Source: a virus
Strand: one strand, 5' to 3'
DNA length: 25,163 nt
Virus record (IMG/VR): IMGVR_UViG_3300042898_001706
Span: 1 to 25,163 of that record
Below the pieces are notes generated by a model. That model saw only the letters and a program-made list of their open reading frames with translations. It made no database searches and had not been told where the DNA came from. Below are positions 2,824-22,020 of the stretch, piece after piece. The translations under genes and the position numbers were made by a program. Position 1 is the stretch's first letter; each line of letters begins with the position of its first letter.

Positions 2824-4468
2824 TGAGCCAGTCCTCCGATTGTAGTTTCCTCTTGCCACATCTCACGCTTTCCCAGAAATTGAATGTCTCAGCCTTGCCC
2901 TTGAACATTTTGATAACGTGGTCTTTGCTGAAATCTACAAAAGGAACCCTATTAAAGTAAGAGTTCTCCGAGTAGAAGAAACCACATGGATTGGGCTTAT
3001 AGGATTTGAAGTTCAGATCTCTAAGTAGGCAGTTGGCCTCATATGAGTTAATCAGGTTAGAATGGGGCAAGTAGGAAGAAATAGCCCAGTCAAGAAAATC
3101 CTTATTGTTGGTGAAATTCGGGATTTTGTCATCCGGGATCTTGATTTGTCTAAATGGTTTATCCCAAGCCCCCTTTGGAGACTGGTCGAGTGAAACCATC
3201 CACTTTCCGACTACTTCGTCCCAATTGAAGTTGCGAGAGTACTCAGACAAAGTCTTCTCAGATATCGCCGCCCTATCACTCTCCGGTAAAGAGAAAAACA
3301 TCTTCCAATAGGAGACAACCTCGTCTATCTCTGGAATTGCTCGATAGCACCCAGTTTCAAGCTCTAGGACCTTTGCCCTGAGTGGAATTGGGAATCCGCC
3401 AATTTTACGGACGATGGATTCCATTGCGGAATAGTCAGTAGACATAACTGGTACTCCACAAGCAGCCGCTTCAAGCTGGCCTATGCCCATTCCCTCGCTA
3501 TTGCTATACTGGATGTATAGATCGAATAGGTTGTATATCTTAGCCAACTCAGCGGTCGTAGCACCATTACTTACACTAGATAGCTTTGCTGCATACTTCT
3601 TACAATTTTTACATTGCTTGATCGTATCGCTAAATTTGCTGATTGATAATTTGCCGCATTCTTCGCAGGCATAGCTGAATAGGACCCGAGATGATATACC
3701 GTACTTCATCATCAATTGTGGAAGGTCCCAACCATTGTCTGGGTACGACGTATGGCAATAGAGATAAGTCTTTTCATCTCCGGTAGTGGCTAGATAAAGA
3801 GCGAAGGCCTCTAGGAGGTCGGGGAAGAGCTTTCGTCTCTGATTCCGCATGACCGTCCCAATAATCTTCCAATCGGGATCTAGGCCCATAGAGAGCCTAT
3901 GAGCGACCTTGTTGGGGACTGGCTTGAACTCGTCAGCGGCACACATCGTGACAGAGCCTATCAGATTCACCGAATCACCAGCTTGCTCCTTGATGACCCC
4001 CTCGGCCCACTCTGAGAGAGTGTAGAAGTAGTCAGCATCGGCAAATTGATTAATCCATTCTGGATTTTGTGGGGCTGAGTCCACCGTACTGGCCCAAGAC
4101 CAAGAGAAGAATGGCCTAAATGGCGAATGTTTCACCCAAGAGTCCATCCATGGGTCTTTCTGCATTATAAGGCAGTCTGGCTTAAAATCTAGGCAAGCCC
4201 TTTCAAATCTCCATGCTCCAAACTGGTTGGCCGGATTAGAGGCATATATCTGCCTTACCTCGTCTGAGTCTGTCTTAGACGGAGCCATTGGATAATTCTT
4301 CCAAGGGATCTCTTTACGTCTTTCATCATCGGCAGATCCGTAGCAGGAGATCTCGGCTACTTCATATTTCCCGGTGGCGATAAGCCGCCTGATAAGCTCG
4401 CGGCCATAAGAGGCGTAGCCTGTATTTAGATAGGAAGCCTCAGACCCAACTAGCACTCTTTTGAGCAT
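2816..4468 (-). CDS. GT4-type glycosyltransferase with internal zinc ribbon (550 aa)
   Basis: Predicted retaining GT-B glycosyltransferase that transfers a sugar from a nucleotide donor; acceptor unknown. The N-terminal domain begins with LVGSEASYLNTGYASYGREL, a glycine-rich opening like other GT4 enzymes. The donor-site domain contains IGTVMRNQRRKLFPDLLEAF (212-231) and the diagnostic SEGMGIGQLEAAACGVPV (324-341), giving the E-x7-E pair at E325 and E333. Between these, residues 268-289 hold CxxC...CxxC (C268, C271, C286, C289), a zinc-ribbon-like insert not usual in GT4. A C-terminal extension of about 100 residues after residue 450 is unassigned. The ATG follows GGAG with 5 bases of spacing and overlaps the sigma-factor stop by 19 bases. 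It is the largest enzyme of the glycan cluster and probably the main transferase. Confidence 0.85.
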   Translation of the reverse strand: MLKRVLVGSEASYLNTGYASYGRELIRRLIATGKYEVAEISCYGSADDERRKEIPWKNYPMAPSKTDSDEVRQIYASNPANQFGAWRFERACLDFKPDCLIMQKDPWMDSWVKHSPFRPFFSWSWASTVDSAPQNPEWINQFADADYFYTLSEWAEGVIKEQAGDSVNLIGSVTMCAADEFKPVPNKVAHRLSMGLDPDWKIIGTVMRNQRRKLFPDLLEAFALYLATTGDEKTYLYCHTSYPDNGWDLPQLMMKYGISSRVLFSYACEECGKLSISKFSDTIKQCKNCKKYAAKLSSVSNGATTAELAKIYNLFDLYIQYSNSEGMGIGQLEAAACGVPVMSTDYSAMESIVRKIGGFPIPLRAKVLELETGCYRAIPEIDEVVSYWKMFFSLPESDRAAISEKTLSEYSRNFNWDEVVGKWMVSLDQSPKGAWDKPFRQIKIPDDKIPNFTNNKDFLDWAISSYLPHSNLINSYEANCLLRDLNFKSYKPNPCGFFYSENSYFNRVPFVDFSKDHVIKMFKGKAETFNFWESVRCGKRKLQSEDWLND

Positions 4469-4890
4469 ATTAACTCCCCAACCTTGATTAGCCGACTTTT
4501 TACTTCTTTCAATGGTAGCTGTAATCGTCTAGCCACTTCTCTTTTACTGTGGCCTTCTGAGAGCATCCTGACCATCTCCGCATCCTCGGGACATAAGTCT
4601 GGCAAAGATTCCCAGAGTTGTGGCTCATCACTTAAACCAAGCCCACTTGGAAGGATCGTATTGGTAAAAGTCTTGTTATGTCTTTTGACGAACTTGACCA
4701 TATCCCTTCGGACGCACAGAGTGAAGAATGTACTCCTTTGTGATCTGATTGGGTCAAACTTTTTTTCAAGCCTTATAGCCGACTGCAAACCTATCTGGAA
4801 GAGGTCTTTAAAGTCATATAGGTGGGTCTTCCTATAGAGAGAGTGTGCAAGATCGGCTATAAGGGCTTCATATTTTTCGAGGATATCCAT
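4450..4890 (-). CDS. Small sigma-70-family RNA polymerase sigma factor (146 aa)
   Basis: Predicted phage sigma factor that would redirect host RNA polymerase, possibly to late promoters. From the ATG at 4890 the protein has a region-2-like block, DFKDLFQIGLQSAIRLEKKF (about 26-45), followed by TFFTLCVRRDMVKFVKRH, the helix that reads the -10 element. A region-4-like helix-turn-helix closes the protein: EDAEMVRMLSEGHSKREVAR followed by RLQLPLKEVKSRL (about 98-130). At 146 aa it lacks regions 1 and 3, the size class of phage late sigma factors such as T4 gp55. A TTG at 4923 is in frame, but the ATG is preferred because GGAG precedes it with 5 bases of spacing and it avoids overlap with the exonuclease gene. 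Target promoters are unknown; a candidate box is noted near 20401. Confidence 0.8.
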   Translation of the reverse strand: MDILEKYEALIADLAHSLYRKTHLYDFKDLFQIGLQSAIRLEKKFDPIRSQRSTFFTLCVRRDMVKFVKRHNKTFTNTILPSGLGLSDEPQLWESLPDLCPEDAEMVRMLSEGHSKREVARRLQLPLKEVKSRLIKVGELICSKEC

Positions 4891-4907
4891 AGAGACTCCG
4901 TCTGGTA

Positions 4908-5561
4908 CTAGAGGGCGAAACAATTTTCGAACTTGACAGTACCTACGGCTTTGCGGATTAGTCGCATTGATTTAATGAGAACTTCCGCTGTCATGATTAC
5001 GTCGCCGAGAGCATCGTGGGATTCTCCTTTGTCTTTCCAGCCCATGTGCTTTCTGATGAGTGAGTCAGCAGATAGACGAGTGACGTTCTTATCGTTCTCG
5101 AAAAATAAAAACATTAGTTGGAGAACATCTATCGATATTGACGGATGAAATGGGCTAGATAGTCCAGTTCTTGCCAAATCTCTTTTTAGGATTGGCGTAT
5201 CGTAGTTATTGATATTATAGCCCGCTGGTATAGGACTTTTCCATTTCGTTTTACCGTAATTGTGAGTATTCACATATGAAACAAAATTAGAGATTCCAGT
5301 CTCTAAGGTTACTCCCTTCTCAGCCAAAAGAGCATGACCCTTTTTATGGATATTAATAGCTCCGTCAGTTAATTCTTGTAGCCCAGCCTTAGCACACTCT
5401 TCTCCATATAGTGGCTTGATGAGAACATCAAATTCACTACCTTCGATGATCTCTAATCTCCTAGCATCAACACATACAGCACCAATTTGTACCACCTGTG
5501 CCGTACTAGTATCAATTCCGCTCGTCTCCAAATCGTATACGATTATGTTCTCGTAGTTAAT
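4908..5561 (-). CDS. DnaQ-like DEDD exonuclease, apparent ATT start (217 aa)
   Basis: Predicted 3'-5' exonuclease of the DnaQ/RNase T superfamily. The catalytic set is visible when numbered from an ATT at 5561: D10 and E12 in VYDLETSG, D121 in NNYDTPIL, and H182 and D187 in SHDALGD (DEDDh type). The only conventional start in frame is a TTG at 5531, which would begin inside VYDLETSG and remove the first catalytic Asp. Upstream there is no ATG, GTG or TTG before the TAG at 5631-5633. ATT at 5561 gives INYENIIVYDLE and is preceded by AGGAG with 7 bases of spacing, so a rare ATT start is the best reading. It lies between the Fe-S nuclease and the sigma gene, and could proofread, trim ends or degrade host DNA. 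Confidence 0.85.
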   Translation of the reverse strand: MNYENIIVYDLETSGIDTSTAQVVQIGAVCVDARRLEIIEGSEFDVLIKPLYGEECAKAGLQELTDGAINIHKKGHALLAEKGVTLETGISNFVSYVNTHNYGKTKWKSPIPAGYNINNYDTPILKRDLARTGLSSPFHPSISIDVLQLMFLFFENDKNVTRLSADSLIRKHMGWKDKGESHDALGDVIMTAEVLIKSMRLIRKAVGTVKFENCFAL

Positions 5562-5572
5562 TGTAATGCTCC

Positions 5573-6616
5573 TTATTCTTTTGGTTCTAAAATTACGTCC
5601 TGCCTGCCGCCCCCAGAATACACCTTCATTCTACTGAGATCGGCATACTTAGCTGTTACAGCGTCCATTCCGATTCTCTCAATCTCATTTCTCATAAAGA
5701 TGCAGGCTGGCACGTCTGGGGAAATCTCTGGAATGATTTGGGAAAAAGCACATAGATGTTTGCACTTGAAATGATTGCAGGTTTTGCTGATTACCCTTGG
5801 AAACTTATCGTCTCTGATAGTCTCGAATTGTTCCCGAATCATAAGCTCAGCCTTTTTGAAATCCTTATCATCAAAAGCGAAAGTGAACACTCCACCCGGA
5901 ACTAAGACCTTGTCGATGGTATGATCATTAATGTAGTAAATCGAAATATAGAAGTGCCTGTCCGGATATTTAAGTCTGAGAGCATAGTAGTATAGGAGAA
6001 GTTGCTTATCCTCAGCTAAGCAGTCATAGGTTTTGACCTTGTCTGTCGCCCAATTATACCTACGTCCCGTTTTGTAATCCATAATATGGAAGAAGATATC
6101 ATCTTCTTTTACAATCAAGTCAACTGTCCCTTTGAGTCCTAGTCGCCCCTCAATTACTTCATCACCGACCTTATAGGAATACTTGGCCCAGTCGTGCGGC
6201 ACCTCGACTTCGAAGAACTCTTCTACGGCATGGACGTTTTGATTTAGTGGATTCATTTCCCCATCGAAACGGGTAATTGCAAGATGTGTCCATTCTAATG
6301 TCAGTTTCTTAGAATTAGGAGGCATAATACCCGGAAACAGCTTCTCATAGTGGGCATGGGATATCTCGTTGAAGTATTCTATTGAACATTTTGAGAAGTT
6401 GATTTTGCCGAATTCTTCATCAATAAAACTTCGCTTTTTCTTAAGATGAGCCATTCTCTGTTTGCCAAGCAATTCGAGACTCTTATGGACTACCGAGCCC
6501 ATAGTACTTTTGCCATTTTGTCTATCTTGCATACCTAGCACATAAGTAAACAGATATTTTTGCGGACAAAGTTGGTATGACCCAATTGATGAGCTTCTAA
6601 GATAGGTTAGTAACAT
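5573..6616 (-). CDS. PD-(D/E)XK nuclease, RecB/AddB/Cas4-like with Fe-S cysteines (347 aa)
   Basis: Predicted DNA exonuclease of the RecB/Cas4 nuclease family. Core residues are H44 (GSVVHKSLEL), D166 (GLKGTVDLIV), and D180 with K182 in HIMDYKTGRR, which is the D...(D/E)xK metal site. Gln and Tyr motif residues follow in EDKQLLLYYYAL. Cysteines C17 (YQLCPQKY) and C280, C285, C289 (CNHFKCKHLC) have the split 1+3 arrangement that holds a 4Fe-4S cluster in AddB and Cas4. The length of about 350 aa suits a free-standing phage nuclease without a helicase domain. The ATG follows GGG with about 5 bases of spacing and overlaps the HNH gene by 20 bases. Next to a DEDD exonuclease and downstream of the recombination genes, it probably resects DNA ends or degrades host DNA. 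It is not associated with a CRISPR array here. Confidence 0.88.
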   Translation of the reverse strand: MLLTYLRSSSIGSYQLCPQKYLFTYVLGMQDRQNGKSTMGSVVHKSLELLGKQRMAHLKKKRSFIDEEFGKINFSKCSIEYFNEISHAHYEKLFPGIMPPNSKKLTLEWTHLAITRFDGEMNPLNQNVHAVEEFFEVEVPHDWAKYSYKVGDEVIEGRLGLKGTVDLIVKEDDIFFHIMDYKTGRRYNWATDKVKTYDCLAEDKQLLLYYYALRLKYPDRHFYISIYYINDHTIDKVLVPGGVFTFAFDDKDFKKAELMIREQFETIRDDKFPRVISKTCNHFKCKHLCAFSQIIPEISPDVPACIFMRNEIERIGMDAVTAKYADLSRMKVYSGGGRQDVILEPKE

Positions 6617-7496
6617 CTGTACCCTTATTAAATTCAGCTATTACTTTACACCAATTTATTAGCTCTGTGTCGGTCATATCCATCTTCATCTGGTTCACAT
6701 CTCTGTGAATCCATTGGACATTATCCTCTGTATAGTGACCCAAGCTATTAATTCGATCTAGAGATGCGGTCCTTACGTCGGTATCCCACAGTAGGTAGAT
6801 ATCGACGCCACTTATGGCACATTTTCCGTTCTGCTTCAGGAATAAGTTATAGGCAAATTCTTTCGTTATACACATCGAAATATTTCTTTGCCTAGCCCCA
6901 CTCTTAACTCCATCCCAATATTTTGATGAGAAGAATTCCCCTCGTTTACTTCTACGGGCTCTTTTCATCTTATCTGAAATTGTGACATCTCTTATGGGTA
7001 TCTCGTGATATAGGAGCCATCTTTTTACTACTGCCTTACTTTTATTACCAGCCACTTTAGCCACATCTGATAATGGTAAATTCTGTTTGACATAATATTC
7101 TTCTAGAAACTCTTTAGTATAAATATTCCCAGAATCATGTTTGCCGCTTCTGTATATCTTGAATTTTCTCAGATATTGGCTGACCGAGTTACTGGAACTT
7201 ATACTATTTTCTCTTGCAATTTGCTGTACACTCTTTTTCAGAGTAACATATTCTCGCTTTAGAAAGTCTTCAGTAAGAATGTCTCTAACATTATTCCCAG
7301 ACCAATTTCCGTGGCTGTAGTTAATATTCTTAGCGAATTCGGCAGGAGTCCTTCTGGGAATTTTGTGCTTTCCTAAATATTCATAGACTGACCTACTACA
7401 ACAATCAACCATAGAAGCTATTTGTTCTGCCGACTTATTATCAGCAACATAGGCTTTAGTCAAAAATTCTTTGCTCAGTATCGATTCTAATCCCAT
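6597..7496 (-). CDS. HNH-type homing endonuclease-like protein with three HTH-like repeats (299 aa)
   Basis: Predicted free-standing HNH endonuclease, probably a homing element. The C-terminal third (about 215-285) has the phage HNH pattern: KCAISGVDI, SLDRINSLGHYTEDNVQWIH, then DVNQMKMDMT. D247, H254, N259, H264 and N268 are candidate active-site residues. The N-terminal part holds three tandem copies of a roughly 40-residue unit (about 8-48, 73-117 and 126-169). Each contains F-L-x4-Y-V, a helix-turn-helix-like centre (EQIASMV, QQIAREN, SDVAKVA) and a closing YL-x-K-x-KIP/IY motif; these probably bind the target DNA. The gene starts in a TAATG overlap with the dNMP kinase stop and overlaps the nuclease gene at its end, so it looks like an insertion that kept operon coupling. 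An intron association is not visible: both flanking genes appear complete. Confidence 0.82.
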   Translation of the reverse strand: MGLESILSKEFLTKAYVADNKSAEQIASMVDCCSRSVYEYLGKHKIPRRTPAEFAKNINYSHGNWSGNNVRDILTEDFLKREYVTLKKSVQQIARENSISSSNSVSQYLRKFKIYRSGKHDSGNIYTKEFLEEYYVKQNLPLSDVAKVAGNKSKAVVKRWLLYHEIPIRDVTISDKMKRARRSKRGEFFSSKYWDGVKSGARQRNISMCITKEFAYNLFLKQNGKCAISGVDIYLLWDTDVRTASLDRINSLGHYTEDNVQWIHRDVNQMKMDMTDTELINWCKVIAEFNKGTDVTNLS

Positions 7497-8320: not shown

Positions 8321-9327
8321 AGTTTTAATCCTTGAACTTCTTCTACTGACATTTCCCCAACATCGTCGATGTCGGGCACAACATGTTTCACATTGAATAG
8401 GCGACTGAGCTTGTTACAATCTTCCCTGCACTTATCTCCAGCTTCATCCCGATCAAAGACAGTGGTCACATTTGTAACCCCAGTTTTCTGCAGTAGAAGC
8501 TCCTGATGATCTGATAAGCGTGACCCGAAAATTCCAACAGCGTTCTTTATCCCGGCTTGATGGAATCTGATCACGTCACCTTGGCCCTCTACTAGTATAA
8601 TCCGACCCGCTTGGCAAATGGCCTGAAAAGCTAACCATAAACCATATAGGTGGTGAGATTTCTTAAATCCCTTTTGGTTCTTCCACTTATCTGGAGCACT
8701 TATGAGGGTTCGCCCAACACATCCGATAAAGACTTTTCCAGTTGGATCGTAGACTGGAAATACTACTCTACCATGCATCTCTTTCGCAGGATCATTACAT
8801 ATCCCAACGTCGAAGATGTCAAGAATCTCAGAGGAGAAACCTCTTTTTATGTAGAAGTCTACTGGTCTTATTAGCTTACTTCTAATTTCTTCCCTAGACG
8901 GGCCGCTAGGCCTGTCTTTGTCCCTCAAAACGATATCATTAAAAGCGTCAGAGACATAGTCAACTTGTTCTGCTCCGCAGAACGTAGAAGCAAGCTTAAG
9001 CACCTCAGTAAAAGATAAGTTGCCATTTATAGTGGCGAGCCCCCTCAGGAGCCCTATGACATCCCCACCGTACTTCTTATGGCATCCAGCAGTATTACAG
9101 AACCAACGACCACAGTACTCTGATGTGATGTCAGAGTTGATATTGAAGGCCGTTATGTTGTCACCCGCGTGGATGGGGCAGTTACAGACCAATAGTTGCC
9201 CCGAGCGGTAGGTCCTGACCCCAAAATAGTTGAGGATTTCGGGGATCTTAGCCTTCAGCTTCCCCTTCAGACTCTGGAGGTCTTTCTGGGAACTCTTTAC
9301 TTCTAGAAAGTCGTCTAACAGTGCCAA
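8317..9327 (-). CDS. DnaG-type DNA primase (336 aa)
   Basis: Predicted primase that makes RNA primers for lagging-strand synthesis. A CHC2-like zinc finger lies at residues 48-82: C50-P-I-H53 and C77-x4-C82, a slightly widened second knuckle compared with the usual CxxC. The Toprim core follows: glutamate E247 in IILVEGQGDVIRF, then D292 and D294 in VFDRDEAGDK. At 336 aa it contains zinc and catalytic domains but has little room for a C-terminal helicase-interaction domain. The start is TTG at 9327: a TGA lies three codons upstream, no ATG occurs before the zinc finger, and AAGGA is 9 bases upstream. It overlaps the helicase gene by 80 bases, the longest overlap in the window, which suggests tight translational coupling of the helicase-primase pair. 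Confidence 0.9.
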   Translation of the reverse strand: MALLDDFLEVKSSQKDLQSLKGKLKAKIPEILNYFGVRTYRSGQLLVCNCPIHAGDNITAFNINSDITSEYCGRWFCNTAGCHKKYGGDVIGLLRGLATINGNLSFTEVLKLASTFCGAEQVDYVSDAFNDIVLRDKDRPSGPSREEIRSKLIRPVDFYIKRGFSSEILDIFDVGICNDPAKEMHGRVVFPVYDPTGKVFIGCVGRTLISAPDKWKNQKGFKKSHHLYGLWLAFQAICQAGRIILVEGQGDVIRFHQAGIKNAVGIFGSRLSDHQELLLQKTGVTNVTTVFDRDEAGDKCREDCNKLSRLFNVKHVVPDIDDVGEMSVEEVQGLKL

Positions 9328-11734
9328 TTTCTCTCATCCTTGCTAATTCGCCCTTCATTTCGAGACAGATATATCCATCGTCAGTCATTCCGGGGCCATG
9401 TCTTGAAAGTACTGGTACTAGCTTGCGGTTGCCATTTTTAGGGCCGTCATCTGCGATTTCGTCTACTGATTTTTGCTTTAGGATGGTAAACGAGGTACAA
9501 AGCCAGCCAATTCTATCCGACTGTGAGATTACGTCGGCTGATTCTTTCTCTATCCCGTCCCTATTTAATTGGACAAACGATAGGCACGGTACATCATGCT
9601 CTACGCAGAAATTGTGCAGCTTTGTTGCTTGGAATCCCATAGCCTGAAATTCGGCTATGTTTTCTGATAGACCAGAGGAGTCCATCAACTTGAAATAGTC
9701 ATAGATGATTAGACAGTCTTTAGTTCTTCCAGTAGGCTCAAATCCTACTTCCTTAAGTACCCATCTTCTGGCTATAGATAAGATTTCGTCAAATCCCTTA
9801 CCGGATACATTAATGTAGTAATAAGGAATAGACGCCAAATAATCTCTTGCTTCAGCTATCGCGGACTTCTTGAGCGGATCTTTTTTGAAGTCGCCAGTCT
9901 TAATCTCATTTATCGAGATGCCGCTAATATTTGCCCATATTCTATTCCAATGGTCTTGCTCTGACATTTCAGTGTCTAGAACCAGTACAGGTAAGTTAAG
10001 CTTTCCAGACACATGCAGTGCTACATTGTCGCAGAAAACCGATTTCCCGCAATTGTGCGTAATGATATGATGATCAGTTAGGAATAAGCCATCATCATTG
10101 GAGATTCTAATGCATCTGGCGTTATCCACTCCTACCTTTTCTATCTTTACGATTGATCTTTTCAGATCTCCGATTTTCCTGTTATTCGATAGATTAGCTT
10201 TTCTGCCGAGCTTGAATGGGATAATATCCTTGGGCAGACGAATTTCACACCTAAAAGAGATAAAGGACTCCCCAAGACAGGTTGTGACCTGCGGCCTAGG
10301 AGTCGCTATCCCACCAAGGGACGTAACGATCTCACACAAGTCATCGATCAACTGCTTAGACACAGACGTAAAAGTATTTCTAGAAGTCTTTGATTTAGGA
10401 TCAATAGTACAAGACCCATCGGTGTCTAAGAGACCCCTTAGTACTTCTAACCTAACTTCTTCTGAGTTGTACTTATAGATATCTGGAATAAACTTCGTAT
10501 AGCAATTATGCCCGAAAATACCGATCTCTCTAAGCTTATTCTGAAAACCATTTATTCTGTATGATATGCATTTCTTTTTGGGGTCATCTTGATCTACTTT
10601 AATTTCATATCCAAGTCCACTGAAGTAATTGTTGACGTACTTAATAATGTCCTGATCCATACTGGTGTATGTGCAGGTCTTTATTAGTGATCCGTCTCCC
10701 AGTAGCACTCCTACTACATATGGGTCTACTGGAACATTTTGGTCCGCATATTTAGTAGAATTCGGCAGTCTTACATCCCATTTGTATTCTATTCCTTTGG
10801 ATGGATCTCCGATATAAAGGTTATTGGCGATATCCTTAGTGGATAATACCTGACTTTTCTTCTTGCTTATGCTTGTATATGGATATCTTTTATATACTTC
10901 CCACAGGTGGTCCTCGCAACAGTCTACGAAGTTTCCGTCTCTAAAATGAACCCTATAGATATCTTTGTTTTGAAAATCGAACACTTCCTCAATGGTAGAA
11001 TCTTCCATAAATGGATGTGAGATTTTATCGCCGACTGATAGATCCTCTATTCTGATTGGGCCATTTTTCGTATAGACTAGAGATCCATATCGAAGACTCT
11101 TAGTTCTAGCCCCAATCAGATCTACGCACTTTCTCAGGAACCCACCACCTATTGCCACGTCGTAAGAGGGGAATCCACTTGGCACTCCAACCTGCTTCGG
11201 CTCGTCTGACACTAGATACTCGAAGTAGTCCATACCTCCTTGACCGAGAAGTTTTGGCCGATTCTCATCTTTCTTCATGTAAGAAGTAGAGGCATTTGAG
11301 AGTGGAGTATCAACTACAGCGATGATATCAGATAGGGATTCTTCCCCAGATATCTCATTGAGGCTCTTGTAGGACTCCTTGATGGTTTCCTGCAAGTGGC
11401 GGGCGAACTGAAGTCTTCTAATCTTCTTAGCGTGCCCTAGAACACTTGAGACGTCCACTGGAGTAGCCAAGACCCCATTGAAATGCTTCAGCACATCTGG
11501 TTTGTTAACATAGTCCCCAAGAGACAAGTCTGTCGCGGCTGAGAGCAGCGACACAAAGTCAACCCTATCAGACTTGTTGATGATGTGCTTTATGCATTTG
11601 TACATCACCTTATTAAAGTCTACAGTGAATGTGCCTTCCTCAAGGAAGGCCTCTGTATCAAGGTAGCAATCAACCCCATGAGAGCATATGCCAGCTAAAA
11701 CTGCCCGCTCGCTAGCCACATTACTCAGGTCCAT
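9248..11734 (-). CDS. DnaB-type replicative helicase interrupted by an intein (828 aa precursor)
   Basis: Predicted hexameric 5'-3' replicative helicase. The N-terminal DnaB domain covers about 1-150 (SNVASERAVLAGICSHG). The RecA-like ATPase starts near 180 with VGVPSGFPSYDVAIGGGF. The Walker A loop is split by an intein: IGARTK precedes it and CGKSVFCDN follows, so the spliced loop reads ARTKCGKS, in agreement with the AxxxxGKS form of DnaB. Walker B is CLIIYDYFKLMD (674-685) and the DnaB-type motif LSFVQLNRDG is at 718-727. Removal of 349 residues leaves 479 aa, a normal size for DnaB. The unspliced precursor should be inactive because the P-loop is disrupted. The ATG follows AAAGGG with about 8 bases of spacing. 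It sits between a zinc-ribbon protein and the primase. Confidence 0.93.
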   Translation of the reverse strand: MDLSNVASERAVLAGICSHGVDCYLDTEAFLEEGTFTVDFNKVMYKCIKHIINKSDRVDFVSLLSAATDLSLGDYVNKPDVLKHFNGVLATPVDVSSVLGHAKKIRRLQFARHLQETIKESYKSLNEISGEESLSDIIAVVDTPLSNASTSYMKKDENRPKLLGQGGMDYFEYLVSDEPKQVGVPSGFPSYDVAIGGGFLRKCVDLIGARTKSLRYGSLVYTKNGPIRIEDLSVGDKISHPFMEDSTIEEVFDFQNKDIYRVHFRDGNFVDCCEDHLWEVYKRYPYTSISKKKSQVLSTKDIANNLYIGDPSKGIEYKWDVRLPNSTKYADQNVPVDPYVVGVLLGDGSLIKTCTYTSMDQDIIKYVNNYFSGLGYEIKVDQDDPKKKCISYRINGFQNKLREIGIFGHNCYTKFIPDIYKYNSEEVRLEVLRGLLDTDGSCTIDPKSKTSRNTFTSVSKQLIDDLCEIVTSLGGIATPRPQVTTCLGESFISFRCEIRLPKDIIPFKLGRKANLSNNRKIGDLKRSIVKIEKVGVDNARCIRISNDDGLFLTDHHIITHNCGKSVFCDNVALHVSGKLNLPVLVLDTEMSEQDHWNRIWANISGISINEIKTGDFKKDPLKKSAIAEARDYLASIPYYYINVSGKGFDEILSIARRWVLKEVGFEPTGRTKDCLIIYDYFKLMDSSGLSENIAEFQAMGFQATKLHNFCVEHDVPCLSFVQLNRDGIEKESADVISQSDRIGWLCTSFTILKQKSVDEIADDGPKNGNRKLVPVLSRHGPGMTDDGYICLEMKGELARMREIGTVRRLSRSKEFPERPPESEGEAEG
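10052..11098 (-). mobile_element. DnaB intein with LAGLIDADG homing endonuclease
   Basis: A full-length cis-splicing intein of 349 aa (residues 213-561 of the precursor). It starts with Ser (SLRYGSLVYTKNGPIRIEDL, block A) and ends with the penultimate His and terminal Asn of HHIITHN (block G), followed by Cys+1. Block B is DGNFVDCCEDHLW with the conserved His at 276. Two LAGLIDADG-type motifs, YVVGVLLGDG (339-348) and VLRGLLDTDG (431-440), both keep the acidic catalytic residue, so the homing nuclease looks intact. Insertion is inside the helicase P-loop between Lys and Cys, a classic site for phage and bacterial helicase inteins. Ser1 rather than Cys1 means the first acyl shift would be N-to-O. 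Confidence 0.93.
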
Positions 11735-12227: not shown

Positions 12228-12705
12228 AAGATCTCTTCTTCCCAATGTCTTGGAGGATATCGGCCATTCTTTTTACTGAATCCAACTTCTGGTCGGCCTG
12301 ACAAATAACAGAAGTAAGATAAATTCTCATTTTCTCTACCTTAACAGCAAAGGTATCTTCAGCAATAATAGCCTGTCTTTTCACTTCATATTTCATGTAC
12401 TCGGAGTGATTAGACCAGTTTCTGGCCACGATGTTATGAAGTATCTCTTCACACCAAGCTCGCTTGGCGATGCATTTGTCGGTCTCTTTACGAACGAAGA
12501 TGCAATAGGAGTGAAGCTTAAATGCCCCGGCGTATGCCTCATCTGAAGAGAGGGAGATTAAGTCCTCGTGAGGCATATCCAGAATCGTCTGGACTACTGG
12601 GTCGAAGCTACAATCGGGGGTCATGAACTCAAGACAGTATCTGTCTATGAACGAAGTGAGTTCTTTTAGTCCGGTGATATCGCTGAAGCGATCAAGTTCT
12701 TCCAT
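12217..12705 (-). CDS. Putative UvsY-like recombination mediator (162 aa)
   Basis: Tentative assignment. The protein is almost entirely helical. Its C-terminal part (about 105-155) reads YEVKRQAIIAEDTFAVKVEK then IYLTSVICQADQKLDSVKRM then ADILQDI. Compared by eye with T4 UvsY, this keeps the order of a K-x-E/V-K helix, a charged loop, and the ending ALDAIKSRG...IKHIQDM. The preceding LHSYCIFVRKETDKCIAKRA may match UvsY's LYSKWLNKHSSIKKE. UvsY loads UvsX recombinase onto SSB-coated single-stranded DNA. Size (162 versus 137 aa) and context fit: it lies one gene downstream of the RecA/UvsX gene and just before the helicase block. The ATG has a very strong site (AGGAGG, 5 bases). No catalytic residues are expected or seen. 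It could instead be an unrelated coiled-coil protein or helicase loader. Confidence 0.6.
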   Translation of the reverse strand: MEELDRFSDITGLKELTSFIDRYCLEFMTPDCSFDPVVQTILDMPHEDLISLSSDEAYAGAFKLHSYCIFVRKETDKCIAKRAWCEEILHNIVARNWSNHSEYMKYEVKRQAIIAEDTFAVKVEKMRIYLTSVICQADQKLDSVKRMADILQDIGKKRSYDR

Positions 12706-13073
12706 TTGTCCTCCTCATTATGCGGCAGAGCCACCAATGTAATATCGTTCAGGTTACACCACTCTGACTTATCTCTATCTCTCTTACGAGCTAGTAAGAA
12801 GTCGGCTTTGGTCTTGTGGAAGAATGGGACAAATTCATAGTGCTGCCTACCATGTACTTCGACAGCGAGAGATATAGACGGTAGGAATATGTCCAAATAA
12901 AGCCCGCAGCCCGGCAGTGTTACCTCTTCAAAGATAACGACTCCGGGCAGGATCTCCAGTAAAAGAGAAAGGGCTTTTTGGTGAGGGGCTGACTTAGCCC
13001 TACTCTTCCGTTTGGTGGATTGCAGGATGAGCTTATGCTGCTTACCATCCAGTCCGGTAACTAAGCGAGCAAT
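12666..13073 (-). CDS. Vsr/DUF559-like nuclease, apparent ATT start (135 aa)
   Basis: Predicted small endonuclease-like protein of the PD-(D/E)XK superfamily. The core is LYLDIFLPSISLAVEVHGRQ followed by HYEF (about 58-81), with the D...ExHGxQHY pattern of DUF559 and Vsr-like proteins, then KRDRDKSEWC. The first ATG/GTG/TTG codon in frame is TTG at 12896, which would start inside this motif. The frame is open upstream to a TGA at 13098-13100 and codes a sensible N terminus (ARLVTGLDGKQHKLIL). An ATT at 13073 is preceded by AAGGAG with 8 bases of spacing (an ATC one codon earlier has 5), and would overlap the recombinase stop by 13 bases, like its neighbours. No ATG or GTG is present. It may repair mismatches, nick DNA, or be a remnant of a homing nuclease. 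Confidence 0.7.
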   Translation of the reverse strand: MARLVTGLDGKQHKLILQSTKRKSRAKSAPHQKALSLLLEILPGVVIFEEVTLPGCGLYLDIFLPSISLAVEVHGRQHYEFVPFFHKTKADFLLARKRDRDKSEWCNLNDITLVALPHNEEDKWKNLIASAISPD

Positions 13074-14104
13074 GATCCAAGCTCCTTCTTTAGGAACTCA
13101 CTGGCTGATGGAGTAGAGGAGATGAAGTCATAGACCTTCTGTTGGCCTTGAAATTTCTGCTCAGCTACTGAGGCCAGATCTGGATGCTCAGTTAGATATG
13201 GAAGTGTAAACCAAGCTCCAGCCTTTTCTATCAGGCCGAAAGATTCGCCAAGTTCAATGAATTCTTTAGTGCAGTCGATTCCATGACCAAATCTAAGATA
13301 GGAAGTAACAGTGTTACCACTTGCCCCCATAGCTGAGCAACTGATGTCACAAGTAGTCTTCTGGCCTATCTTTTTACCGTTCTCTTCCCATGGTTCGACA
13401 TGGGTAAAGTCGAGCCTATTGTCGGCTTGATACTGAACCATAACTCCACAGTCGGCCACTTTGTGCTTACCATACCCACTCGTGTTAGTGATGTAGTGGG
13501 TGATAAGAACCATTAGGATGTCATTCCTGACGACAACCTGAGCATTCTGCTTGACCCAGTGGGAAAGCATCTTAGGGAGCTGTGCTCGAAGCTTAGAGGA
13601 TACTTCGGCATCCATCTCGTCTCTTGGTAAGAGAGATGATGTAGAATCAATTACGCATACAGCCCCTCTATTCTTAGGGAGTCGGATCATAGCATTGACT
13701 GTATTCAGTATATCTTCGGCAGAAAGATCTTCTTCTTTACCGCTGATAACCTCGATCTCTTTCTTATCTAGGTTATGGATACCTGCCAAATTGTATTGCT
13801 TGATACGACTTTCCGCGTCGGCATAAATACCCCTCCGGCCTTGTGCCTGAGCATTCGCAATAAGTTGCAGACACAGAGAAGATTTGCCACACTTGGGAAC
13901 TCCAGAGATAACTGTCCAGCTACCTTCTAGGATACCACCATTTAGCCCTAGATCATAAGCTGGGCTGATACTAATACATTGCTTGTTTGACTTCTCGTCA
14001 AAAATGTCAGAACCACTACGGATAATATCTCCATACTTCTTCTTGATTGCCGCCATCCCAACGTCACCAACATCAACAGTTTCACTCTTTGCTTTTTTTG
14101 CCAT
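13061..14104 (-). CDS. RecA/UvsX-type recombinase (347 aa)
   Basis: Predicted ATP-dependent strand-exchange protein for phage recombination and recombination-dependent replication. The core opens with DLGLNGGILEGSWTVISG and the Walker A motif GVPKCGKSS (68-76). The catalytic glutamate is in YADAESR (E98), and the Walker B strand is AVCVIDSTSSLL. LPKMLSHW and LMVLITHYITNTSGYG resemble the L1/L2 region and motif that contact DNA. The C terminus is short and lacks the acidic tail of bacterial RecA, as is usual for phage forms. No intein is present even though the P-loop has the same KCGKS sequence as the helicase intein site. It leads a block with the nuclease, possible mediator, helicase and primase. 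The start ATG has AGGG about 12 bases upstream. Confidence 0.92.
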   Translation of the reverse strand: MAKKAKSETVDVGDVGMAAIKKKYGDIIRSGSDIFDEKSNKQCISISPAYDLGLNGGILEGSWTVISGVPKCGKSSLCLQLIANAQAQGRRGIYADAESRIKQYNLAGIHNLDKKEIEVISGKEEDLSAEDILNTVNAMIRLPKNRGAVCVIDSTSSLLPRDEMDAEVSSKLRAQLPKMLSHWVKQNAQVVVRNDILMVLITHYITNTSGYGKHKVADCGVMVQYQADNRLDFTHVEPWEENGKKIGQKTTCDISCSAMGASGNTVTSYLRFGHGIDCTKEFIELGESFGLIEKAGAWFTLPYLTEHPDLASVAEQKFQGQQKVYDFISSTPSASEFLKKELGSLLA

Positions 14105-18305: not shown

Positions 18306-18567
18306 TTTTCTTCTTCTTGTATCGTACAGTAATTTCGCTATACTGTGGAAAAAAAGCAATTATATGGAATGAAACGAATCGATGTAATTTCTCATCTAGG
18401 TTAGAGAAATCTCTGTTGAATAGAAATTGCATTTTCCTTATATTAAGACAATCATCTTGATCGCGTTTCACATATTCAGCATCGGCCAAGAAGGGCTGCA
18501 ATCCATTGTCTACGTGGTAGTAATACCCATCATGATTTCCTATGCCCTCTATCTCTATTAGCATCAT
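18298..18567 (-). CDS. Hypothetical protein between nrdA and nrdB (89 aa)
   Basis: Not recognised. The chosen ATG at 18567 forms an ATGA overlap with the nrdA C-terminal gene's TGA and has GGAG about 10 bases upstream; ATGs at 18576 and 18564 are alternatives. The protein begins MMLIEIEGIGNHDGYYYHVD, contains KLHRFVSFHIIAFFPQ, and ends in a very basic RYKKKKNA. It has no cysteine cluster, no clear membrane span and no glutaredoxin CxxC. Co-translation with both RNR subunits suggests an RNR-linked role, but this is from position only. Confidence 0.6.
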   Translation of the reverse strand: MMLIEIEGIGNHDGYYYHVDNGLQPFLADAEYVKRDQDDCLNIRKMQFLFNRDFSNLDEKLHRFVSFHIIAFFPQYSEITVRYKKKKNA

Positions 18568-19610
18568 AATGTACATGCTCCACCAACACAGGAGGTATCA
18601 GCCTCCTCATTGTCGTTAGGAGTGTTGTTGTAGTACATGGTACGAAGCCCATACTTGTAAGCATTAATGATATCCTGAACCACTACAGAGATTGGAATTT
18701 CCCCATTTTCGTAGTGATTGTAGTTTAGATATGTGTTAAAACTCATAGACATGTCAACCCACTTTTGGAACGCACCAGCCATCTTGATGCAATTCAGATT
18801 GCTAGTCATATCCCAAGCTATTGTGTATTGTTTCTTATTTTTTGGGTAGTTGGGTGTAAGCACCTTCTTTACCCCATTCTTAGCAATCTTCTCAGTGAGT
18901 AAGGCTCTGATCGGCTCGAATCCATTAGTGGATGAGTGGAGAACACTCGAACTTTCAGCGGGCATAATTGTTGAGAGAGTGCAATTGGATAGACCAGTTC
19001 TTGCGATCTCTGCTCTCAGCCACTCCCAGTCTTGCTTGAGTGGGAACTGGAGGTCATCCGGTAAAGATGAATGGTTGTCAATCGGGAGCCAGCCGCGTGA
19101 GTACTTGGAGGCATAGAAGTCTGGGGCACGATTGAAGAATGGTCCGTCTTCACCTGCCAGTTTCGAAGAAGCGAGAAGTAGGTTATACTGAATATACTCC
19201 ATTAAATCATTTGAGGCCTCAATCGACTCTGGAGTCTCATGGTTCATACCATTCTCTGCTAACCAAGCGGCAAAGTTAGTAATGCCGATTCCTAGGGATC
19301 TCTTTCTTTTACAGAAGAGTTCTGCTGCTGGGAATGGGTATAGTTGGTAGTCTATTAGACTGTTGAGCAGCCTCACGATAGTTTCACACACCTTTGGAAT
19401 TTCTGCGTGCTTGGTCTCAAGCAGATTGATAGAAGAAAGAATACAGATTCCAATTCTGCCATCTTGGCTATCTACAGAAGATAGGGGAGATACGGGTTGT
19501 AGGATTTCGCAGTTATGAACCAATATACCGTTGGCATAGAAATTATGATGATCTTCCGTCTGAATATCAAATACATCTTCGGTTTCTTCAATGGTTTCTA
19601 TTATTAGCAT
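18564..19610 (-). CDS. nrdA: NrdA C-terminal part fused to the C-half of a split intein (348 aa)
   Basis: C-terminal part of class I ribonucleotide reductase large subunit, made as a separate protein. Residues 1-33 are the C-intein (ending GILVHN), and C34 is the first residue of the C-extein (CEILQPVSPLSS). The extein carries the catalytic Glu of the N-x-C-x-E site right after Cys+1, the second redox cysteine in GRIGICILSS, the radical-transfer tyrosines in RTMYYNNTP, and the C-terminal CxxxxC (SCVGGACTL) that is re-reduced by thioredoxin or glutaredoxin. It contains no ATP cone and cannot work alone. Trans-splicing with the upstream 530-aa protein would give a 742-aa NrdA. The start lies inside the endonuclease gene (7-base overlap) behind AAGGG. 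Confidence 0.93.
   Translation of the reverse strand: MLIIETIEETEDVFDIQTEDHHNFYANGILVHNCEILQPVSPLSSVDSQDGRIGICILSSINLLETKHAEIPKVCETIVRLLNSLIDYQLYPFPAAELFCKRKRSLGIGITNFAAWLAENGMNHETPESIEASNDLMEYIQYNLLLASSKLAGEDGPFFNRAPDFYASKYSRGWLPIDNHSSLPDDLQFPLKQDWEWLRAEIARTGLSNCTLSTIMPAESSSVLHSSTNGFEPIRALLTEKIAKNGVKKVLTPNYPKNKKQYTIAWDMTSNLNCIKMAGAFQKWVDMSMSFNTYLNYNHYENGEIPISVVVQDIINAYKYGLRTMYYNNTPNDNEEADTSCVGGACTL
19512..19610 (-). other. Split intein, C-terminal half (33 aa)
   Basis: The protein segment from the ATG to Asn33 reads MLIIETIEETEDVFDIQTED and ends NFYANGILVHN, followed by Cys. It contains intein blocks F and G, with the penultimate His and terminal Asn needed for cyclisation. About 33-36 residues is the usual length of a natural C-intein. 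Its partner is at 20431-20739; together they make a 136-residue mini-intein with no endonuclease domain. Confidence 0.92.
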
Positions 19611-20365
19611 CTTTTAAGTACACCCTTCTGTAGGTTCAATAATTGTATACGTTCGTCGTTTTCGTGTATCTGGTAGTTTCTCACCCCATCATTGTAATAC
19701 TTCCTACCCAATATAGCATCCGAGATCTTCTTTCGAGATTCTAGACTGTATGACCTTTTAGACATGTCAAAGTCAGAATCAGAATATTCAAATCCGAGCA
19801 TACTGAGTTCTATCTTCACCAAGTCGGTGAAATTTTTGAACGAGCCGCCGAATCTATTTTTCGAAAAGCTTTGTGGATAGCTATTCTTCTTAGAGAAAGA
19901 GAACCATTCGTTGCGACCTAAACTACCATATACTATATAGAATTTTACAGCAGCATATATTAGCTCTCGATCTGTAAAACCTGAATGATTTGCGTTTCTC
20001 TCGCCTGTTGATCTTATTGAGAGCTTCTTTATCCAAGAATCTCTCTTCTCCCCTTCCAGCATACTTACACAATCGCCACCGTCTCCTCCCGATGTCAGAT
20101 TGTATCCATACAACTCCTCGTTTGATTTAAACATAGAGATATAATCTCTTTCCTTCTCTAGGGCCTCTTCCCTATACGCTGATTCAAAAAGCACAGTAGA
20201 AACAATATTCGCGACTCCGTACTTTCTGATAGCTCTATGGAAAAAGGTTTCTGATCCAGCATTTGCCAACTGAACATGCTGCCTGAGTCTTACTAGTATC
20301 CCCTTGCCAGTGACCCCAATATATTTTTTACCGTTAATCTCGTGACAATAAACTATGTGTAGCAT
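19604..20365 (-). CDS. GIY-YIG homing endonuclease between the nrdA halves (253 aa)
   Basis: Predicted GIY-YIG endonuclease, probably the homing nuclease of the split-intein insertion. The nuclease domain (about 1-95) shows HIVYCHEINGKKYIGVTG (the GIY and YIG strands; Val-Tyr replaces Ile-Tyr in the first), an Arg-rich helix LVRLRQHVQ, a candidate metal Glu in EEALEKERDYI, and YNLTSGGDGG at its end. The C-terminal part has SLESRKKISDAILGRKYYND followed by GVRNYQI, like NUMOD-type DNA-binding modules of phage homing enzymes. The start at 20365 has GAGG with 6 bases of spacing; an ATG at 20377 is also in frame. A perfect 8-bp hairpin lies directly upstream. The stop overlaps the nrdA C-part start, so that gene may rely on ribosomes from this one. 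Confidence 0.9.
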   Translation of the reverse strand: MLHIVYCHEINGKKYIGVTGKGILVRLRQHVQLANAGSETFFHRAIRKYGVANIVSTVLFESAYREEALEKERDYISMFKSNEELYGYNLTSGGDGGDCVSMLEGEKRDSWIKKLSIRSTGERNANHSGFTDRELIYAAVKFYIVYGSLGRNEWFSFSKKNSYPQSFSKNRFGGSFKNFTDLVKIELSMLGFEYSDSDFDMSKRSYSLESRKKISDAILGRKYYNDGVRNYQIHENDERIQLLNLQKGVLKRC

Positions 20366-20375
20366 TGCGTACCTC

Positions 20376-20403
20376 ATAAGTAGGATGTAAAATCTCTACT
20401 TAT
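20376..20403 (-). promoter_or_regulatory. Hairpin next to the endonuclease ribosome site
   Basis: On the coding strand ATAAGTAG, a 12-base loop and CTACTTAT form a perfect 8-bp stem. The 3' arm ends exactly where the GAGG Shine-Dalgarno sequence of the endonuclease begins and contains two bases of the alternative upstream ATG. In transcripts that include both arms this stem would obstruct ribosome binding. The structure sits in the 62-base gap between the nrdA N-part stop and the endonuclease ATG, one of the larger gaps in the window. Confidence 0.6.
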
Positions 20404-20408
20404 CTATA
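20401..20408 (-). promoter_or_regulatory. Possible late-promoter-like box TATAGATA
   Basis: TATAGATA on the coding strand matches the T4 late-promoter box TATAAATA at 7 of 8 bases. If used with T4 geometry, transcription would start near 20395, just after the 5' arm of the hairpin at 20376-20403. The late transcript would therefore lack the stem and free the ribosome site. The box alone is weak evidence in AT-rich DNA, and this phage's sigma specificity is unknown. Confidence 0.3.
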
Positions 20409-20427
20409 CGCAATATTTCAGCCTACA

Positions 20428-22020
20428 CTAGATTATTTCTAATTCGTCTGTAACTAAAAGGTTCCCGGCTTCGACATACCCTCTGTTTTTTGTGAAAATA
20501 CGATGATCTGCTGTACATCTAAGACTTCGGCCAGATTCAGAGTCTGTTATTTTTATGACCTTAGAATTGCTCTTAGTCTTTTGTACAGCGAGCACTTTAT
20601 CAAAAGTAACAGATTTCCCATCATTAGATGATATTCTGACATCAGTATAATTTGGGAATATCTCTACAAACTCTGACATTTTCACCTTCATGAGCGAGTT
20701 GTCTACTACTACGTCAACCTCGGTGTCTCCAGACAGGCAGCAGAGATTAGTCATCTGGATAAGCTCGTCCCATGATGACTGATTACAACTGTCCATGAAC
20801 ATGATATAAATTCGGCCAGTCTCAAGTCGCTCCTTAGCGATCAAGAACAGCAGGTCTCTCGCCTTTACTGTTTTGGTGAGCCTTAAGGACTTACCCTCAA
20901 CTTCTTCATACTTCTGAGTAAATTCTTTACTGCCCCAATATTGATACAGGTCGGATTCATGAGGGCAAACTAGGGTAACATCTTCATCATTCTTAACCCG
21001 ATCGAAGAAGGTCTTGTCGAGCTGAATGCAATAGTCTAACTTTTTGACCCGATTATCATCAGTCCCACGATTGTTCTTCAGAACAACTACATTCTCAATC
21101 TCATAATGCCACCAAGGCACTGACACTGTAGCTCCACCACCTCTGGTGCCATTCTGGGAGGTTGATTTTACTGTACTCTCCATGACTCGTAGGAATGGAA
21201 CAATCCCAGTAGAGATAACTTCACTATCTCGGATTGGGCAATTTTTGGCTCGAATTCGGCCCATGTTGATGCCAATGCCGCTCCTACGGGCTGTATACTT
21301 ACCTGCGACCATAGAAGAGGTAAAGATAGAGTCTAGACTATCCCCGCAATCAATCAGCACGCAAGAGCTGTAATACTTGGTGCGTGAACGCACACCAGAC
21401 AAAACAGGGGTTGGCAAGTTGATCTTGAACTTTGAGATGTAGTTATATGCCTGCTTGATTAGCTCCATACGATCTTCCCTGCCTGCGTAAAGCACCATAG
21501 GGATAAGCATGAAGGCAAACTGGGGAGTCTCAAAGATCTTCTTGGTAGACCGATCACAGATCAAATACTTCTCAATCATCTGCTGAATACCCGCATGGGT
21601 AAAGCGAAAATCCCTATCATGATTGATCATTTTGTCAATCTTGTGGATTTCTGACTCCGAGTAGGACTCTAGGAGTACGTCATCATAGACCTTCTTGTTC
21701 TTCTTGAGATGGTCTAGGAGGCGAGGTGGCAAATTACCTCCCCATACTTCCTTTCGGAGAGCGTACAGTCTAAGACGGGCTGCAACGAACTGATAGTTCG
21801 GAGCGTCTTCGCTGATCAGATTGTAGGCGGACTGAATCAAAACCTCCTGAATATCCTTCGTCTTGATCTTATTCGAGATACTAAGCTTGGCATTCATCGC
21901 GACATCGCTAGGGCTAACGTCGGAAACACCCTCACATGCCCACTCTAGTACCTTATTAACCTTCTCCGCATCAAACTCCTCCATCTTCCCGTTACGCTTC
22001 TTGACCAACAAATCTGTCAT
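20428..22020 (-). CDS. nrdA: NrdA N-terminal part fused to the N-half of a split intein (530 aa)
   Basis: N-terminal part of class I ribonucleotide reductase large subunit. An ATP-cone domain opens the protein (LVKKRNGKMEEFDAEKVNKV), which is the allosteric activity site. Catalytic-barrel signatures follow: YYSSCVLIDCGDSLDSI (first redox cysteine, C220), ARRSGIGINMGRIRA, SQNGTRGGGATVS and LKNNRGTDDNRVKKLDY. The extein ends MTNLC427, where C427 matches the thiyl-radical cysteine (E. coli C439, in NLCLE). From C428 (CLSGDTEV) to the stop is the N-intein. The ATG follows AGGG with 6 bases of spacing. This protein lacks the catalytic Glu and the C-terminal cysteines, which are in the separate gene at 18564-19610, so activity should need protein trans-splicing (427 plus 315 extein residues). 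Confidence 0.94.
   Translation of the reverse strand: MTDLLVKKRNGKMEEFDAEKVNKVLEWACEGVSDVSPSDVAMNAKLSISNKIKTKDIQEVLIQSAYNLISEDAPNYQFVAARLRLYALRKEVWGGNLPPRLLDHLKKNKKVYDDVLLESYSESEIHKIDKMINHDRDFRFTHAGIQQMIEKYLICDRSTKKIFETPQFAFMLIPMVLYAGREDRMELIKQAYNYISKFKINLPTPVLSGVRSRTKYYSSCVLIDCGDSLDSIFTSSMVAGKYTARRSGIGINMGRIRAKNCPIRDSEVISTGIVPFLRVMESTVKSTSQNGTRGGGATVSVPWWHYEIENVVVLKNNRGTDDNRVKKLDYCIQLDKTFFDRVKNDEDVTLVCPHESDLYQYWGSKEFTQKYEEVEGKSLRLTKTVKARDLLFLIAKERLETGRIYIMFMDSCNQSSWDELIQMTNLCCLSGDTEVDVVVDNSLMKVKMSEFVEIFPNYTDVRISSNDGKSVTFDKVLAVQKTKSNSKVIKITDSESGRSLRCTADHRIFTKNRGYVEAGNLLVTDELEII
20431..20739 (-). other. Split intein, N-terminal half (103 aa)
   Basis: Residues 428-530 of the N-part protein. 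Block A is CLSGDTEVDVVVD with Cys1; block B is GRSLRCTADHRIF with the T-x-x-H pair (T503, H506). The segment ends VTDELEII at the stop codon, where natural N-inteins end. Length and sequence resemble the NrdA split inteins described from marine metagenomes. The cognate C-half is at 19512-19610. Confidence 0.92.

Follow-up and report, generated by a model that had tools for sequence, protein, structure and literature searches.

To our knowledge, AUU initiation codons are on record for a handful of cellular genes. Initiation at AUU and AUC involves a third-base mismatch with the initiator tRNA and has a low efficiency, and an excess of IF3 suppresses it (PMC2268962). The E. coli infC gene, which encodes IF3, carries a selected AUU start that limits expression and is IF3-sensitive, as cited in the same paper (PMC2268962). 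E. coli pcnB also starts with AUU, which keeps down the amount of its product, poly(A) polymerase I, an enzyme acting on nucleic acids (Binns and Masters 2002, as quoted in PMC13009471). Conserved AUH starts are accompanied by extended Shine-Dalgarno (SD) sequences in ccpN of S. aureus and B. subtilis (AUA) and in cvfC1 of S. aureus (AUU), and S. aureus reporters carrying conserved AUU/AUA starts with extended SDs yield about 10% of the AUG output (PMC13009471).

A start of this type marks an exonuclease gene in the stretch of viral DNA analysed here (25,163 nt, IMG/VR record IMGVR_UViG_3300042898_001706, hereafter the window). The gene (4908..5561, minus strand) comprises 217 codons and begins with ATT (5559..5561, minus). 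It shares AUU with infC and pcnB, and with the latter also the coding of a nucleic-acid enzyme. infC is autoregulated, its product being IF3, whereas the product of the phage gene is a nuclease, which IF3 could gate only from outside. pcnB is a single chromosomal gene, for which no family is reported in which AUU/AUC and AUG repeatedly alternate, as they do in the phage family. ccpN and cvfC1 are cellular regulators of Firmicutes, whereas the phage genes encode replication nucleases and appear to be stop-start coupled; moreover, AUU and AUC but no AUA were seen in the phage exonucleases, whereas AUA is used by ccpN. Features of the infC/pcnB type found in the exonuclease are an AUH codon lacking a usable ATG, GTG or TTG, the conservation of AUH, and a strong SD. 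Attenuation by such codons is already known (infC, pcnB, S. aureus ccpN and cvfC1), but that phage nucleases employ it recurrently appears to be new. The open-access literature searched yielded no report of phage exonucleases with AUU/AUC starts, an absence which is not proof.

The product belongs, by sequence and predicted fold, to the DEDDh (DnaQ/RNase T/TREX-like) 3'-5' exonuclease superfamily, and the corresponding activity is predicted. It matches Pfam RNase_T (PF00929; 9e-10) and PHROG 192 ('DNA polymerase exonuclease subunit'). The DEDDh motifs (DxE, the motif II Asp, and Hx4D of motif III) are all present, and residues D10, E12, D121, H182 and D187 are invariant in an alignment of 10 diverse members. 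The AlphaFold model (pLDDT 80, pTM 0.81) has an RNase H-like exonuclease fold, and was matched by Foldseek to RNase T (TMq 0.73, E 1e-10), and further to the TREX1 homologue Plex9.1 and to DnaQ domains. Fold and catalytic residues are thus common to RNase T, TREX1, Plex9.1, the DnaQ/PolC exonuclease domains and the phage protein; compared with known DEDDh exonucleases, the novelty of the phage gene lies in the start codon, and the enzyme itself is not new.

The exonuclease reading frame is bounded on the minus strand by stops at 5633-5631 and 4910-4908. Direct reading bore out the initial annotation, which had found no ATG, GTG or TTG between the upstream stop and TTG 5531, had placed this TTG within the first catalytic motif, and had noted AGGAG 7 bases from ATT 5561. 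TTG 5531 is codon 11 counted from ATT and encodes the Leu of D-L-E-T, so that initiation there would remove the catalytic Asp10. The SD sequence AAGGAG (5569..5574, minus) is separated by 7 nt from ATT, and its duplex with the anti-SD has an energy of -8.5 kcal/mol; among 24 ATG genes of the window the median is -6.4. A start at 5561 stands, with one small correction: a second in-frame ATT, at 5567, had been omitted. This codon is 1 nt away from the SD, and relative L003 has AGT instead; the conserved ATT is therefore the one at 5561. The N terminus predicted for an AUU start is (M)NYENIIVYDLETSGIDTSTAQVVQIGAVCVDAR. Folding of the mRNA near the start has nothing unusual (z 0.18).

Initiation at TTG 5531, yielding a regulatory fragment devoid of catalysis, or decay of the gene, would dispense with ATT altogether, and TTG 5531 is the sole canonical codon near the N terminus. 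However, the codons from ATT to TTG encode most of a conserved beta strand (residues 5-13) in addition to Asp10, the TTG has no scored SD, and L003-L007 lack it, their next canonical codon being at 84-90. A dN/dS of about 0.02-0.03 is not that of a dead gene. Both possibilities have a negligible probability.

Immediately upstream lies a PD-(D/E)XK nuclease gene (5573..6616, minus; Pfam PDDEXK_1, 3e-22), whose TAA stop (5575-5573) overlaps the exonuclease SD. The two genes are likely translationally coupled, judging from this overlap.

Relatives of the exonuclease were collected from 15 viral contigs. Seven contigs, which stem from different metagenomes, retain ATT (the window, L003-L007 and L013), with the same order of SD, spacer and ATT. 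ATT lineages diverge by 16-18% of nucleotides in the gene and by 16-24% in the upstream 300 nt; three of them have pairwise dS of about 1.4-1.6 and dN of 0.02-0.05. Misreading of ATG as ATT had been named as a possible refutation, and one changed base would suffice. The persistence of ATT in 7 contigs, among lineages so distant at synonymous sites, and the reappearance of ATT or ATC in at least 13 distant contigs refute an error of sequencing or assembly, which is left with almost no probability. Seven relatives have ATG at the aligned start residue (L001 and L002, 95% identical in protein, and L008-L012; range 63-95%), which answers the question of whether ATG stands in place of ATT in homologues. 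The proposal that ATT is the start is thus upheld by its conservation across lineages, by its alignment with the ATG of close relatives, and by its recurrence in distant ones.

In ATT genomes, 14 nt separate the last PD-(D/E)XK codon from the exonuclease. L001, L008, L009 and L010 carry between the two genes inserts of 303-1327 nt, which contain a short ORF, an HNH-like gene, or a reversed homing-endonuclease-like gene. Within the window clade, ATT seems to go with direct coupling to the upstream gene, as gene order suggests. The DNA tree of the exonuclease is mostly unresolved, with recombination, so that the order of gain and loss of ATT inside the clade cannot be deduced. In L025 and L027, an HTH/HNH-type gene in reverse orientation, which probably encodes a homing endonuclease, sits at the 5' end of the exonuclease, between it and the PD-(D/E)XK gene. 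In L027 the exonuclease has a new N terminus, and a leftover of the old start (ATG AAT TAC GAG) is visible; the start region may be a homing site. No close match to cultivated relatives or to a host of these phages was found. In the genome collection, the N-terminal pattern of the exonuclease matched only L287, a 3.6-kb contig of a Flavobacteriales MAG and perhaps phage DNA that was binned together with its host; a single match on such a contig is too weak to name Flavobacteriales as host.

More distant relatives, about 35-43% identical, were retrieved by alignment search. Among 80 loci, close and distant, 12 have ATT or ATC near residue 1 and lack a canonical start. A first pattern scan gave, among the matches listed, at least 109 ATG, at least 7 ATT and at least 4 ATC, and no ATA. 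When 2.9 million viral contigs were scanned specifically for AT[ACT]-N-Y/F-R-D, 13 contigs were returned, distant relatives at about 39% identity, every one with ATT or ATC; in all, an in-frame stop occurs 3-11 codons upstream, with no canonical start in between. L153 is an additional non-AUG member, outside this pattern. The first downstream canonical codon falls past the catalytic Asp in all non-AUG members except L153 (codon 7). All ATT/ATC evidence comes from metagenomic contigs, which represent many independent assemblies. On a protein tree of 113 members, start states changed at least 10 times (about 14 with shuffled labels), and a single clade of non-AUG members was rejected (AU test, p_AU 5.9e-6); the number of origins is only approximate, because the exonuclease genes are recombinant mosaics. 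In the distant clade, the gene immediately preceding the ATT/ATC exonuclease is not PD-(D/E)XK but one for a conserved small protein of about 79 aa (L238:4012-4248, L173:2877-3155, L176:10992-11225), which has no PHROG match.

The Ile codon could be internal, had the exonuclease been made as a fusion with the product of the upstream gene by frameshifting or stop readthrough. A UAG is found upstream, in frame and 4 codons before the start, in L171, L183 and L153, and these are the only members in which a readthrough fusion is possible. In L004-L007 and L013 an in-frame TAA occurs 7 codons upstream, and a -1 slip would need re-pairing of AAA on TAA; in L214 the upstream gene ends 59 nt away, and the exonuclease frame opens 5 codons before ATC. 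Slippery heptamers common to the members are missing, and a fusion would leave unexplained the strong SD at 4-7 nt. A programmed frameshift or readthrough was rejected for most members, in the lack of a frame linked across them, and a fusion is regarded as very improbable.

Strong SDs distinguish the non-AUG members. Anti-SD duplexes of -7.9 kcal/mol or lower, a cut-off set after the data were seen, are featured by 15/15 distinct non-AUG members and by 13/98 AUG members (Fisher 2e-11); about 6 of 6 phylogenetically independent pairs exhibit the association of SD and start (p 0.03). Median values in the same contigs are -5.3 for other genes and -2.7 for random positions, hence SDs are used by these phages but seldom are so strong.

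A plain genome-wide BLAST screen for non-canonical starts produced mostly noise from antisense or overlapping frames, and was replaced by two screens, one combining coding frame and SD, the other based on consensus starts. In the latter, the start was taken as the consensus ATG column of the relatives of each gene, and 838 genes of the same contigs were scored. ATT or ATC occurred in 10/105 exonuclease frames and in 0 of about 733 others; other non-canonical calls were evidently misplaced internal columns. Across twelve window-clade genomes, AAGGAG-N6-9-ATT followed by an ORF of at least 40 codons marks essentially only the exonuclease and a nuclease gene adjacent to recA, the exceptions being a single site in G001/G002/G004 and another in G010 that adjoins ATG.

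ATT could be the true start and still be nearly neutral, if a strong SD and coupled reinitiation relaxed codon identity and AUG drifted to AUU/AUC. Most non-AUG members have the start 2-14 nt from the upstream stop, and compensation by the strong SD is possible. Drift should however lead to GTG, TTG or CTG at least as easily, and none of the three was found in a matching scan of the same viral collection. Among the remaining genes of these contigs, GTG or TTG serves as start 39 times and ATT or ATC never, and ATT was preserved across near-saturated synonymous divergence. Neutral drift is accordingly considered unlikely, though less so than a fusion. The complete absence of GTG, TTG and CTG suggests that a deep, IF3-sensitive reduction, as given by AUU/AUC, is favoured.

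The best explanation, in which we have considerable confidence, is that starting at AUU/AUC attenuates translation, which is rescued by a strong SD and linked to that of the upstream gene. The exonuclease would be translated from AUU at 5561, to which ribosomes would be brought by the strong SD overlapping the PD-(D/E)XK stop; given this overlap, part of them would probably be ribosomes that end PD-(D/E)XK translation. Since the initiator tRNA should pair poorly with AUU, due to the third-base mismatch, and IF3 should discard most such complexes, the exonuclease may be made at a small fraction of the AUG level. IF3 behaviour is assumed here. Output would be kept in step with the upstream partner, if coupling holds. 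The codon would be a selected attenuator rather than an accident, having repeatedly arisen or been swapped with AUG, always in the company of a strong SD. A low level of the protein, as presumed, fits the known behaviour of AUU/AUA, the gene-specificity, the strong SD, and the presence of a second nuclease gene with an ATT start. Independent ATT/ATC starts in distant relatives, with strong SDs, make the weak start look repeatedly selected to keep the nuclease scarce. The selective reason may be toxicity, a balance of subunits with the phage polymerase, timing, or the sensing of translation capacity. Attenuation is not essential in every phage, because many family members start with AUG.

A wider reading is that a large group of uncultivated phages uses AUU/AUC initiation as a general, repeatedly evolved gate on the dosage or timing of its DNA nucleases. 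Codons discriminated by IF3 would then tie nuclease synthesis to the IF3-to-ribosome ratio of the host and to translation of the upstream gene. This extension is tentative, and we consider it doubtful. Gene finders normally accept only ATG, GTG and TTG, so that genes of this type are expected to be truncated or missed; truncation of the exonuclease would drop the catalytic Asp, and the enzyme would look dead. A family switching many times between AUG and AUU/AUC, always with a strong SD, provides a natural experiment in start-codon attenuation, and makes testable the use by phages of IF3 discrimination to set nuclease dosage.

The second ATT-start gene of the window (12666..13073, minus) is annotated as an HNH/homing-type endonuclease, and overlaps the 3' end of a recA/UvsX-like recombinase gene (13061..14104, minus; Pfam RecA 2e-15, PHROG 97 UvsX-like). 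Its SD, AAGGAG (13082..13087, minus), resides within recA codons, 8 nt from ATT 13073, and in the window 59 codons pass without a canonical start. Fourteen contigs share AAGGAG-N8-ATT-GCT unchanged. In the frame of the gene, conservation sets in at ATT: the immediately preceding codons vary (GAWI, GDCL, GARI, GACI, GDLL, GAYN), whereas codons 1-2 do not, and Val5 persists via four synonymous codons, even where ATG stands one codon later. The recA Leu overlapping the start is always TTG, whereas other conserved recA Leu residues vary among 4-5 codons. As ATG would turn this Leu into Trp, ATT may be due in part to the recA overlap. The exonuclease start is free of such a constraint.

Elsewhere in the window, a split intein divides nrdA, encoding the large subunit of class I RNR (18564-22020, minus), into two ORFs, and a GIY-YIG endonuclease gene is found between the halves, in a fractured-gene arrangement (Pfam intein, GIY-YIG and RNR matches). 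A DnaB-like replicative helicase (9248-11734, minus) carries an intein with a LAGLIDADG-like domain. The HTH + HNH/endonuclease VII-like gene at 6597-7496 (minus), located between the dNMP kinase and PD-(D/E)XK genes, is possibly a free-standing homing endonuclease of the L025/L027 type. Directly downstream of the exonuclease, the gene at 4450-4923 (minus) encodes a small protein matching sigma-70 region 2, and likely starts at the ATG just past the exonuclease stop, not at the listed TTG 4923.
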